Assembly: GCF_016861785.1 (NCBI RefSeq)
Contig: NZ_BOLS01000009.1
Location: 62,001 to 126,000 of the forward strand
DNA from: Lacticaseibacillus mingshuiensis
Lineage (GTDB): Bacteria > Bacillota > Bacilli > Lactobacillales > Lactobacillaceae
Length of the DNA stretch: 64,000 nucleotides
Direction of reading: 5' to 3'
Made by a program: the position numbers and the translations under genes. The number at the start of each line of letters is the position of its first letter. Within the stretch, counting starts at the first letter, position 1. Positions 8,953-11,807 of the stretch are shown one piece after another. The notes beneath the pieces were generated by a model. The model saw only the letters and a list, made by a program, of their open reading frames with translations, did not search any database and was not told the DNA's origin.

Positions 8953-9091
8953 AATTGTCTCCCCCTCTAGCGTGCGGGCGGGTCGCCCACAAAAACGTCC
9001 GACTTTTAGGATAATCTAATCCGGCAAATTGTGCCACCTTGGCGATGTAAATGTGCGTTAATGCAAAGTACCTTTGTTTGATGTTTCGGCC

Positions 9092-9262
9092 GGGTGGACT
9101 CTCGGGTGGGCTCCGGGCAGAACTGGCTGGAACGCTCCCAGGCAACTTTATGCCCGCGAAGTTCGCGGTCATAAAGCTTGCCTTCGGTGTAAGCGGCACA
9201 GCCGCTAACACCGACGAGGGGGCTGAGCCGGTTCTGCCCTCCGCCCACCCGAGAGCCCACCC
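9092..9262. repeat. Large structured intergenic repeat, copy 1
   Basis: The ends 9092-9128 and 9226-9262 form a 37-position inverted repeat with only four mismatches and one G-T pair. Inside are CTTTATG/CATAAAG enclosing CGCGAA/TTCGCG, then CGGTGT/ACACCG enclosing AGCGGC/GCCGCT, and GCTCCC can pair with GGGGGC to close the core. The same architecture with shared core sequence recurs at 26316-26510. It is either a folded RNA or a dispersed palindromic element; the transcribed strand is not clear. Confidence 0.8.
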
Positions 9263-9452
9263 TCACATCCTACAATAAAGGGACTTTGCGGAACGATTTA
9301 CGTCACCAGGCACATTTTGCCGCTTATTTTATATCCTAAAAGTCCGCATTCGTAGCCACTCCGTCTGTTGACTCGGCCATGCTTTTCACGAAGACAGATT
9401 TTCTCCATCCTCTGCACACCAGCTTCTCGCGTATTGCGCCCCCCAAACCGCA

Positions 9453-9794
9453 CAAAAAAACCACTGGTAGGGGGCCAGTGGCGTTTGGAGGAGTTCACAA
9501 GTTAGGGGACTTGTGAGTATTTTGTCAGATCGCATTAGGGGGGTGTGATCCGACGTTTGCAATGCGGATAGGGGGTCTGCATCGCTTTGGTGCGTGATCT
9601 TCGATTGGGGGTCGAAGATCGTCAGGGGTTTGGCGGCCGCAAGTTAGGGGGACTTGCGACCAAGGGTTTGCACGCCCGGCGACTTAGGGGGATCGCTGGC
9701 GGTGCACTCGCGATATTAGGGGGTATCACGAGATTGGAGGAGTTTTTCATGAAGTTGCGGCAAGAGTTTTGTTCTTCTGGGGTAGCTCTTGTCT
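9453..9794 (-). ncRNA. Multi-hairpin C-loop RNA candidate (about 340 nt)
   Basis: On the minus strand nine consecutive hairpins run from 9791 to 9461. In plus coordinates they lie at 9761-9791, 9707-9732, 9670-9705, 9638-9658, 9596-9620, 9559-9585, 9524-9554, 9496-9515 and 9461-9481. The last eight all carry CCCC(C)(C)UA or CCCCCAA in the loop while their stems have unrelated sequences, for example GATCTTCGA, CGCAAGT and CCACTGG. Two linkers read CUCCUCC (9742-9736 and 9493-9487), an anti-Shine-Dalgarno sequence. The final hairpin is followed by seven T residues, a textbook terminator, and a perfect TATAAT lies just upstream. No coding frame explains this pattern. I do not recognise a known family; Firmicute sRNAs such as RsaE, FsrA and LhrC use single C-rich loops to pair with ribosome-binding sites, and this would be a multivalent version. 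Confidence 0.8.
9454..9481 (-). terminator. Terminator hairpin of the C-loop RNA
   Basis: CCACTGG and CCAGTGG form a 7-bp stem with loop CCCCCTA, followed on the minus strand by TTTTTTT (9460-9454). The terminator itself carries the repeated loop. Confidence 0.85.
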
Positions 9795-9800
9795 ACGTTT

Positions 9801-9837
9801 ATTATACTAACGGGAGAGTGTGAACACTTTGTGAACA
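9801..9837 (-). promoter_or_regulatory. Promoter and Pho-box-like direct repeat of the C-loop RNA
   Basis: On the minus strand two perfect TGTTCACA units (9837-9830 and 9826-9819) repeat with an 11-bp period. Twelve bases later comes TATAAT (9806-9801). No good -35 hexamer is present, as expected for an activator-dependent promoter. TTCACA-N5-TTCACA fits the PhoP/PhoB direct-repeat pattern (TTHACA in Bacillus, GTTCAC in Streptomyces). The link to phosphate is inference. Confidence 0.65.
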
Positions 9838-10216
9838 GAACGTGGCGCTTCTGTCATCTTTTCAAGCGCGCTTTGTGAAAATAGGTCCAGGAAGCCCTCA
9901 CGCTGGTGTCCTACTGCACCGGCACGTCTTGTCACCCACCGAGAAAATACCCGAAGCTTTCACTTGTGCGCACTGCCAATTCCGGCCCAGGTCCATGCCC
10001 ACCGAGCAAAAAGCACACAATGCGCTACACACGAAGCACGTTATCTCAAATGTGTGTGGAGATTCTCGCAGCCAATTTTCAAAAAAAGAGGGAGTAGATC
10101 GTACATGTGGTCCCAGTTTCTTTGGGCGAACTGGATTGCACATTTGTCCCAGTTCCCATCAGCCAACGACAATTGTTAAAAACAAATGCGGCTCCTTCAA
10201 AAGATTGGACAGAAGA
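9838..10216. other. Non-coding region between the RNA candidate and mazEF
   Basis: About 380 bases with no convincing gene on either strand. Short direct repeats such as TCCCAGTT (twice, near 10112 and 10148) occur, but I see no hairpin array, terminator or mobile-element end here. Confidence 0.4.
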
Positions 10217-10273: not shown

Positions 10274-10504
10274 ATGGACATTAAGGCAAGAAAGGTCGGC
10301 CACTCAATTACACTTACAGTGCCGATCAACATTAAGGTTGAAATTGGTCAAGAGTTCACCGTCCACACTCAGCCCGATGGTAGCATTGTTTTTACTCCTA
10401 AACACCAAAATCCGTTTGAAGGTAACTGGTTTAATGAAGATCTAGCACAAACAGAGGCCCTCCTCGAGCCCGATACGGAGGTCCTTGATAGTGAGTGGAG
10501 CTAG
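10274..10504 (+). CDS. mazE: MazE/PemI-type antitoxin (AbrB-like fold)
   Basis: A 76-residue protein with an N-terminal swapped-hairpin DNA-binding region (MDIKARKVGHSITLTVPINI) and an acidic C-terminal tail (EDLAQTEALLEPDTEVLDSEW), the usual toxin-neutralising part. AAAGGAGG lies seven bases before ATG. The last 14 bases overlap the toxin gene, typical of these pairs. Confidence 0.9.
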   Translation: MDIKARKVGHSITLTVPINIKVEIGQEFTVHTQPDGSIVFTPKHQNPFEGNWFNEDLAQTEALLEPDTEVLDSEWS

Positions 10505-10853
10505 TGAGTACATCCCAAATAAAGGGGACATTGTCACCATCGACTTCGAGCCCAGTAAAGGATCAGAGATTCGCAAACGACGGCCTGCTCTAGTACTCAG
10601 CAATAGTAAGTATTCGAGACTAACGCGACTTGCCGTGGTTTGTCCCATTACACACGCAACAAATAACCGTTTAAGTGGTAACGGTCTGCTCGTAGAATTA
10701 AAGAAGACGAAAACAAGCGGCTTTGTTAATCCGTTACAGTTTCACACCTTCGATTTCCGAACCCGAAAAATGCGTTTCGTGGAAAAGGTTCCTAACTCTT
10801 TGCTTAGACAGGTCCTCCAGTGTGTCAACGATATCATTAATGCGCGGGAGTAG
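10491..10853 (+). CDS. mazF: MazF/PemK-family mRNA interferase toxin
   Basis: The 120-residue product cleaves RNA at short sequences when its antitoxin is lost. Family motifs KGDIVTIDF, the catalytic-loop KRRPALVLSN, VVCPITHATN and the C-terminal LLRQVLQCVNDII helix are present. The frame is open to TTG at 10485, but GGAGG (10477-10481) is only three bases from that codon and nine from GTG at 10491, so GTG is preferred. It overlaps mazE by 14 bases. Confidence 0.9.
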   Translation: MSGASEYIPNKGDIVTIDFEPSKGSEIRKRRPALVLSNSKYSRLTRLAVVCPITHATNNRLSGNGLLVELKKTKTSGFVNPLQFHTFDFRTRKMRFVEKVPNSLLRQVLQCVNDIINARE

Positions 10854-10979: not shown

Positions 10980-11090
10980 TTAACTGACCCGACGCATCAA
11001 GTGTACGAAATACAACATCTTCTGCGCGGCCTGTTTGTCAACGTTGGCCTCGTCTGCTACGTTGTTCAGGCGCTGAAATAGATTGCTCAC
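10980..11090 (-). pseudogene. abiEii: Remnant of an AbiEii/AbiGii-type toxin gene
   Basis: A 36-codon frame starts with GTG overlapping the abiEi stop by one base (TAGTG), the normal abiEi-abiEii coupling. It reads MSNLFQRLNNVADEANVDKQ, then AAQKMLYFVHLMRRVS, which resembles the first helices of AbiEii nucleotidyltransferases, and stops. The family has about 250-300 residues, so at least four fifths is missing, including the catalytic GS motif. The mazEF terminator begins 40 bases further on, so the rest was probably lost when that region was exchanged. Confidence 0.6.
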
Positions 11091-11671
11091 TAAACCAAAA
11101 CCTCCAGTGCGTAATCGATCGTCGAATTCGCATAGAGCTTATTTTTGAAGTGCATCAGCTCACGGTCAGACTGGCTGGACCGGAAGCGACTCATATATTC
11201 CTTGAGCGCCTCGAGACGAACGGCGGTATCGATCTGCGGATCGTCCCAGATGTCTAGCAACGTGCGGGTCGGCGAATAGACAGTCACCGTTGCGCCACTA
11301 GTGGTCGTAACTTCTGTGAGGCCAAGCATTAATCGATCAGGCTGCTGCCGAAACGGTTTGATTTGATGACTGACCAAGTTCTTGTTGCTGTATCCATTTG
11401 GAAAAGCCATATCAATATGCTTGGGCAATTCGTCAGTCATGTCATACAGGGCCAGTGCCGACATTTTCGCAAAGATACCGTTGGGGTAAATCAGGGCGAT
11501 CATCGCATAAATGTCGTATGGCATACCCGCGCGTGCATAAACACCACGCGTCATCTTCGTGATGAGGCCGTCCGTCAGTGCCGCCTTCAAGTCACGCTTA
11601 GAGAGTCCGGCTTCGTATGCCATTTGGGTTGTGAATAAGCCCCTGTTAAATATTGAATCGATTGGTTGCAT
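11090..11671 (-). CDS. abiEi: AbiEi-type antitoxin/transcriptional regulator (type IV TA)
   Basis: A 193-residue protein with an N-terminal winged helix (about residues 10-60, FTTQMAYEAGLSKRDLKAAL as the recognition region) and an AbiEi C-terminal domain with YSPTRTLLDIWDDP and the VRLEALKEYM helix. In complete systems it represses the operon and counters a nucleotidyltransferase toxin. The ATG at 11671 with GGGAGGGA upstream is preferred over the in-frame codon at 11728. Its toxin partner downstream is reduced to 36 codons, so this is an orphan antitoxin. Confidence 0.85.
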   Translation of the reverse strand: MQPIDSIFNRGLFTTQMAYEAGLSKRDLKAALTDGLITKMTRGVYARAGMPYDIYAMIALIYPNGIFAKMSALALYDMTDELPKHIDMAFPNGYSNKNLVSHQIKPFRQQPDRLMLGLTEVTTTSGATVTVYSPTRTLLDIWDDPQIDTAVRLEALKEYMSRFRSSQSDRELMHFKNKLYANSTIDYALEVLV

Positions 11672-11807
11672 CGCTCGTCCCTCCCGCACACGCTTCATCA
11701 CAAAAATGTGTGCGTAAGGGACACGCACGTCAAAATTCTACAATCTTAAATCGCAAAGCAAAACGCCATGACATTTGGCGAAGGGCGTATCATGATGCAG
11801 CCCCCTT

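Follow-up and report, generated by a model that had tools for sequence, protein, structure and literature searches.

Does a series of C-loop hairpins in the genome of Lacticaseibacillus mingshuiensis encode a small RNA, and, if so, to which kind of regulator does it belong? The hairpins lie on the minus strand at positions 9797-9454 of the window, the 64,000-nucleotide stretch of DNA analysed here. This region folds as a hairpin array with a minimum free energy (MFE) of -112.3 kcal/mol, compared with a mean of -63.5 kcal/mol for shuffled sequences (z -9.46; an equally low MFE in 0 of 100 shuffles). A counter of C-loop hairpins gives eight for the array and from 0 to 3 in 2000 dinucleotide shuffles (1403, 512, 78, and 7 shuffles with 0, 1, 2, and 3, respectively); every other 345-nt tile of the window, taken in 50-base steps away from the array, contains at most three. 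Both results confirm the eight minus-strand hairpins that a preliminary description had placed here. In order from hairpin 1 to hairpin 8, the loops are CCCCCUAA, CCCCCUAA, CCCCCUA, CCCCCAA, CCCCCUA, CCCCCCUAA, CCCCUA, and CCCCCUA, which agrees with the nearly constant loop described earlier (CCCCCUA with one CCCCCAA and with C4 and C6 variants). In the MFE structure, the stems comprise 8-13 pairs. They had been regarded as unrelated and mostly do differ, but hairpins 3 and 7 have the stem portion CAAGU/ACUUG in common. A ninth hairpin precedes these eight at the 5' end, and part of the leader bases that follow it closes the outermost stem of the MFE structure (the features are collected in Table 1).

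Table 1. Features predicted at the hairpin array and its promoter (window positions; SD, Shine-Dalgarno sequence; G021, L. yichunensis).
Feature	Position	Strand	Remarks
Direct repeat TTCACA-AAGTG-TTCACA, in place of a -35 box	9819..9835	-	Likely OmpR-type response regulator site; class proposed
-10 region TAGTATAAT	9801..9809	-	Relatives' register TAGTAT (9809-9804) overlaps TATAAT (9806-9801)
Predicted small RNA transcript	9454..9797	-	~340-344 nt; putative start set by the -10, end by the U run
5' hairpin CAAGAG..CUCUUG, 19-nt loop with CCCC	9761..9791	-	Counterpart of the relatives' 5' hairpin
Leader AACUUCAUGAAAAACUCCUCC	9736..9756	-	Complementary to SD and start codon (GGAGGAGUUUUUCAUGAAGUU); contains anti-SD linker 1
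Anti-SD linker 1, CUCCUCC	9742-9736	-	Inside the leader
Hairpin 1, loop CCCCCUAA	9707..9732	-	MFE fold
Hairpin 2, loop CCCCCUAA	9669..9706	-	MFE fold; three changes in G021, one at the outermost pair, two leaving the fold intact
Hairpin 3, loop CCCCCUA	9634..9662	-	In G021, one G-U becomes A-U
Hairpin 4, loop CCCCCAA	9596..9620	-	MFE fold
Hairpin 5, loop CCCCCUA	9559..9585	-	3' arm altered in G021, folding retained with a bulge
Hairpin 6, loop CCCCCCUAA	9524..9554	-	MFE fold
Hairpin 7, loop CCCCUA (CCCCCUA in G021)	9495..9516	-	MFE fold and comparison
Anti-SD linker 2, CUCCUCC	9487..9493	-	From sequence
Hairpin 8 (loop CCCCCUA) with seven U, intrinsic terminator	9454..9482	-	From sequence

The plus strand also folds better than its shuffles (z -6.3), as is expected of a complement; despite this fold, the minus strand is taken as the RNA strand because the promoter, the terminator, and the relatives described below all point to it. 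The terminator with its run of seven U is present as had been noted, and so are the two CUCCUCC linkers, which are complementary to a strong SD. The 5' linker exceeds the anti-SD role assigned to it, as it is the end of a leader (9756-9736) complementary to a complete translation start, GGAGGAG-N6-AUGAAGUU. That the minus strand specifies a structured RNA presenting C-rich, anti-SD sequence appears well supported by the C-rich loops, by the covarying stems of the relatives, and by conservation of the promoter and array beyond that of the more distant flanks.

In a DNA search of 60 genomes, the array was found only in its own genome and in that of L. yichunensis (G021). Promoter and array are 98.3% identical in the two species over 413 aligned bases (seven substitutions and two indels). 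Identity falls to 75.6% over the 400 nt upstream and to 66.7% over the 200 nt downstream; the neighbouring mannosidase gene is 93.4% identical. Approximately 115 nt directly upstream of the promoter (9850-9965, minus strand), which contain TTTTCACAAAG, are also well conserved, better than the sequence farther out, and thus conservation extends beyond the RNA. Most of the substitutions in G021 affect stems, yet none of the eight hairpins fails to fold there; one substitution, at the outermost pair of hairpin 2, is without compensation. The loops differ by a single extra C, in hairpin 7.

Part of this conservation could be explained by a coding sequence on the plus strand, namely, a 78-codon frame at 9587-9823 or a short frame within it behind GGAGGAG-TTTTTC-ATG. 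The longer frame keeps its length and protein in G021: its four differences (9637, 9676, 9697, and 9706) are all third-position and synonymous, for which the chance is approx. 1.5% if they arose as random transitions, and the three other substitutions and both indels fall outside it. Moreover, a textbook SD and ATG stand on the plus strand at 9736-9750. However, the coding evidence comprises two sequences and four differences only, and the longer frame has a TTG/GTG start without an SD and no Pfam match at E 1. In the relatives, the corresponding antisense frames range from 5 to 98 codons, are shifted after the start, and are not conserved, whereas promoter, terminator, and covariation all belong to the minus strand. 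A coding role is, in our judgement, very improbable, though conservation of the frame in G021 slightly lowered the weight given to the antisense RNA explanation preferred below.

The promoter links the array to a wider set of genes. Upstream of the array, the direct repeat TTCACA-AAGTG-TTCACA is followed by N9-TAGTAT. The perfect TATAAT to which the preliminary description drew attention is present, but the register kept in relatives is TAGTAT, three bases upstream. The signature CACA-N5-TTCACA-N11-13-TATA occurs at 23 sites in 19 of 30 genomes of the genus and in none of the 30 in a reversed control; by reading of the sequences, 22 of the 23 sites precede a similar small-RNA gene. The window promoter shares this architecture, with a CACA-N5-TTCACA repeat in register with the -10. 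Of the 54 sites gathered for a promoter alignment, the six without TTCA[CT]A were left out and 48 used, such that this choice of sites accounts for part of the conservation in the second hexamer; the columns of the CACA half, TTT, and TANNNT were unselected. The promoter is apparently of a two-component type, and its architecture suggests the class of the regulator. The 23rd site precedes a major-facilitator (MFS) transporter gene, whose homologue in the genome of the window likewise has the repeat. In two species (L066, G000:C16:39481; L050, G029:C25:7890), TTCACA-N5-TTCACA was observed 5' of such a gene, with a -10 register that reads CANNNT there; this hints at the MFS transporter as a candidate protein-coding member of the sRNA regulon.

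The small-RNA genes behind this promoter form a family, whose typical member (type 1) is approx. 150 nt long and has four hairpins. In an alignment of 16 sequences, type 1 has a near-invariant core, CAAC-U5-8-CAU-UUUU(U)-ACUCCUCC, that is complementary to GGAGGAGU-AAAA-AUG-AAAAAGUUG; the leader of the window array occupies the same position as this invariant anti-SD/anti-AUG core. The RNAalifold structure of type 1 comprises 24 pairs, 17 of which have changed on both sides. Such both-side changes amount to 62 cells against a shuffled mean of 20.2 (0 of 500 shuffles as high) and to 7-11 in slid controls, a comparison biased in favour of the structure, which was derived from the same alignment. 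Among five such measures of covariation, one, the number of further pair types, was matched by 32 of 500 shuffles.

These data also bear on the reading of the array as a DNA-level repeat, made up of protein-binding sites or a mobile palindrome, which a repeated TAGGGGG motif might suggest. Had that been so, as the preliminary description pointed out, relatives might show stems that lose pairing while the primary sequence is kept; when this was looked for in the family, the opposite was found, as the stems covary. Within the array, the arms vary among units and the loop alone is constant; the array is a single copy in its own 2.76-Mb genome, and promoter and terminator lie on one strand. A DNA-level repeat is scarcely credible on this evidence.

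C-rich loops are a general property of the family. In a survey of 53 members (with the ends of two shifted by hand and one shuffle per member), 182 of 215 predicted loops were C-rich, compared with 28 of 158 after base shuffling. Exactly four hairpins were predicted in 49 of the 53 members, and the largest number was six (in G011); the array of the window comprises nine hairpins, of which eight carry C4-6 loops. Loop variants in the wider family include CCACCCA, CCUCCAA, CCCCCAA, and CCCCCUAA. A second form, type 2, lies in tandem 3' of type 1 in three genomes (G017, G012, and G029); in G017, it consists of a leader and then two hairpins with CCUCCAA loops. The window leader aligns with the G017 type-2 leader with a score of 53 (maximum of 26 in 500 shuffles), with that of G012 with a score of 39 (shuffled maximum of 28), and with type 1 of its own genome with a score of 38 (shuffled maximum of 31; 500 shuffles each), while its alignment with the G029 type-2 leader is not above chance (score 17; 191 of 500 shuffles as good). 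The covariance model built on type 1 (R1) gives no match on the window array at E 0.05, and on the G021 copy it touches only (E 0.023). The array has a 5' hairpin followed by an anti-AUG and anti-SD (CUCCUCC) leader, and then C-rich hairpin loops and a hairpin terminator, as in the family. Since three of the four leader alignments exceed those of shuffles and R1 does not match the array, the array is, on this comparison of sequences, a divergent, expanded paralogue of a Lactobacillaceae family of TTCACA-box antisense sRNAs and not a type-1 member. The initial reading as a C-loop regulatory RNA thus holds for a structured, C-rich, anti-SD RNA, but it omitted the multicopy family of which the array is a paralogue, the promoter type, and the anti-start-codon leader.

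The same features allow an alternative to base pairing, in which an RNA-binding protein would be sequestered by the array, one copy at each CCCCCUA loop. Titration RNAs such as CsrB/RsmZ repeat a loop motif and, in the Gac/Rsm case, are under two-component control (PMC4132741), and a constant loop on varied stems, in many copies per molecule, resembles them; protein titration has also been raised for LhrC by its authors (PMC4132741). In contrast, the GGA loop motifs of CsrB/RsmZ bind CsrA, whereas the CCCCCUA loops of the array are without GGA and are accompanied by a pairing leader. An anti-SD/anti-AUG leader has no role in titration, and the variation of loops across the family suits pairing with varied SDs better than a single protein site. 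Titration is accordingly regarded as unlikely.

The family is widespread in lactobacilli. At E 0.01, R1 matches are present in 168 of 397 Lactobacillaceae genomes, often in several copies; among good genomes, 161 of 378 match, in 21 of 40 genera. All 26 genomes drawn from the genus match, with 1-7 copies each and at least two copies in 24, and the window's own genome has three R1 copies in addition to the array. A 26-base exact core of the relatives yielded 25 matching stretches in a scan of named genomes, all of them in Lacticaseibacillus. In 23 genomes from other families of the order, the best R1 matches reach E 5e-6 and resemble the family in a CAUUUU..ACUCCUCC core, some of them lying in tandem; at a permissive E of 1, 22 of the 23 give something, though weak matches are no evidence. 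In one of these families, two loci (L128 and L129) each carry, in a stretch of approx. 1 kb, three near-identical tandem copies of a shorter relative with the core CAUUUUAUUUACUCCUCC. Within the Lactobacillaceae, tandem sRNA pairs with CCCCCUAA loops, as in the window, lie in G006 and G011 (L024 and L025) between what, from a reading of the open reading frames (ORFs), appear to be genes for a copper-type P-ATPase and a Trk-type potassium transporter. A UCCUCC-array pattern was found in 4 of 397 Lactobacillaceae genomes, with a family sRNA in G017 only; the pattern misses the type-2 copy of G012, in which one gap is 9 nt.

Searched against Rfam 15, neither the window nor the sRNAs at 20 loci of relatives gave a match at the cut-offs; there was no match at E 10 around the array (9300-10000), and none at E 0.01 on eight loci of other families. 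Near relatives gave two tRNAs and other weak, chance-like matches. Two candidates were rejected as below cut-off: rli32, which scored 29.6 bits on the type-1 gene of the own genome (cut-off of 100), and ar14, which scored 34 and 27.2 bits on two relatives from other genera (cut-off of 58.8). A plasmid BLAST gave no match. In the published literature searched, no description of the sRNA family was found, and the family thus appears undescribed there, although the kind of system is known. A survey of Lacticaseibacillus paracasei BL23, which reports 307 putative sRNAs (PMC8220740), may contain some of its members. The analysis thereby brings to light a widespread, often multicopy sRNA family of lactobacilli that is without an Rfam model at cut-off.

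Several known systems resemble the array in part. The closest precedent for its repeated-loop design is the cuckoo RNAs of Rhizobiales (alpha-r14/NfeR1; SmelA075 and SmelA099), which are described as having 3-4 hairpins that present one anti-SD loop on highly variable stems and whose motifs are predicted to be equally able to reach many mRNAs, many of them for ABC transport (PMC3927594, PMC10746234). The likeness is one of architecture only: the cuckoo loop CCUCCUCCC is absent from the array, whose loops are of the CCCCCUA type, and the cuckoo RNAs are alphaproteobacterial with three or four loops, compared with eight here. The window region 9300-10000 has no match to ar14, the Rfam family of the cuckoo RNAs, at E 10, and relatives in other genera match it only below threshold; the likeness is thus likely convergent, which suggests that the cuckoo-RNA design arose independently in Firmicutes. 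The preliminary description compared the array with Firmicute sRNAs, which it credited with one to three C-rich loops; for the repeated-loop design itself, the cuckoo RNAs provide a precedent.

The csRNAs of streptococci, which belong to the CiaRH regulon, are multicopy, carry a hexamer-N5-hexamer repeat approx. 10 nt before the -10, and consist of an unpaired anti-SD and anti-AUG stretch and a terminator, with predicted lengths of 51-202 nt (PMC3091779). The array resembles them in its N5 repeat with a -10 about ten bases on, its anti-SD/anti-start region, its terminator, and the existence of several copies. In contrast, the CiaR box NTTAAG-N5-TTTAAG is absent and the hexamers of the array are TTCACA; CiaH homologues have been reported absent from Lactobacillus, and a constant-loop array is not among the csRNA features described in the relevant part of that account (PMC3091779). 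LhrC1-5 of Listeria monocytogenes are likewise multicopy and under two-component control (LisRK), and pair with mRNA through redundant C-rich motifs in the loops and the linker; a surface adhesin is among their targets, and no LisR consensus was known (PMC4132741). The array shares the repeated C-rich loop motifs, with eight loops and two linkers against three motifs per LhrC molecule, and the window has no Rfam match. As far as they are described in the sources cited, neither the cuckoo RNAs, with three or four loops, nor LhrC, with three motifs, reaches the eight loops of the array. Because the array lacks the CiaR box and the CCUCCUCCC loop and has no Rfam match, it is not filed in the csRNA, cuckoo, or LhrC families. 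RNAIII, RsaE, and SprD of Staphylococcus aureus and FsrA of Bacillus subtilis have few C-rich motifs per RNA and promoters other than that of the array. They are UCCC-motif sRNAs in which the C-rich motif takes part in mRNA binding (PMC4132741).

It is probable that the array encodes a stress-type antisense RNA, an enlarged paralogue of its family that is induced by a regulator and blocks SD and start regions. In such a mechanism, a response regulator of the OmpR family would bind the TTCACA-N5-TTCACA repeat and turn on transcription, and the resulting RNA of approx. 340 nt would fold as nine hairpins. The single-stranded leader (anti-GGAGGAG-N6-AUGAAG) would pair with one or a few mRNAs at the SD and start codon. 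For the eight CCCCCUA-type loops, together with the second CUCCUCC linker, we infer pairing with the G-rich SDs of other mRNAs (UAGGGGG, GGAGGAG). Ribosome loading would be blocked and the mRNAs probably exposed to decay; eight copies of the loop may raise the chance of contact or allow several mRNAs to be held by one RNA.

Possible targets of the loops were sought as TAGGGGG-N4-10-ATG, with 16 matches in the own genome against 9 in reversed controls and 14 against 6 in G021. Two species without the array, G002 (30 against 9) and G005 (25 against 10), have more such sites than the own genome; because the sites are commoner in array-less species, co-evolution with the array is unsupported. TAGGAGG start sites number 108 against 7 in controls. 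All 16 TAGGGGG loci of the own genome were examined (an ORF of 60 aa or more in 14), as were the first 30 of the 108 TAGGAGG loci (25 with an ORF) and ten TAGGGGG loci each of the 14, 30, and 25 in G021, G002, and G005. Judged by their N-termini, the UAGGGGG-start genes of the own genome include one for a pilin-like protein and three, for an OppA-like lipoprotein, a second lipoprotein, and a surface protein, whose start motifs are letter-identical in the G021 list. In class, this set is similar to LapB, an adhesin targeted by LhrC (PMC4132741), and to the ABC-transport genes that are candidate targets of the cuckoo RNA NfeR1 (PMC10746234). Signal or membrane N-termini were not significantly more frequent among TAGGGGG genes (6 of 14) than among TAGGAGG genes (4 of 25; p 0.12).

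That the enrichment of targets is not specific to array-bearing species would also suit a genuine base-pairing sRNA in which the leader alone works and the extra loops are near-neutral and mainly stabilising, as would the occurrence of the loop expansion in only 2 of 30 genomes of the genus. Against this, the loops of the array are the same in both species except for one added C, and C-rich loops are retained family-wide; near-neutral loops appear decidedly unlikely. If, as is preferred here, the loops of the antisense RNA act on mRNAs, a more elaborate, tentative possibility is a hub RNA, in which the eight C-loops and two CUCCUCC linkers would mimic the anti-SD end of the ribosome and hold several mRNAs; the number of loops would then set the degree of repression, and a whole envelope-stress regulon might be tuned by gain and loss of hairpins instead of gene copies. 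With four-hairpin members and a nine-hairpin one in a single genome, the array constitutes a natural valency experiment, and loop counting could test why antisense RNAs repeat a C-rich motif.

The surroundings of the array contain further elements. A PemK/MazF-like toxin gene (10485-10853, plus strand; Pfam E 2.9e-20) lies behind a small ORF with the size and place of an antitoxin, together forming a module at 10274-10853. In G021, only approx. 515 bases separate the array promoter from the mannosidase gene, without a listed ORF of this kind; judging from these two loci, the module was probably either inserted here or lost in G021. A protein with an AbiEi-type antitoxin domain (Pfam PF13338) is encoded at 11090-11728 on the minus strand. 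Finally, a long near-palindromic element (GGGTGGGCTCTCGGG...) is located at 9090-9262, and long palindromes also occur 3' of the sRNAs at L032, L062, and L028; it is perhaps a REP-like element of the genus.
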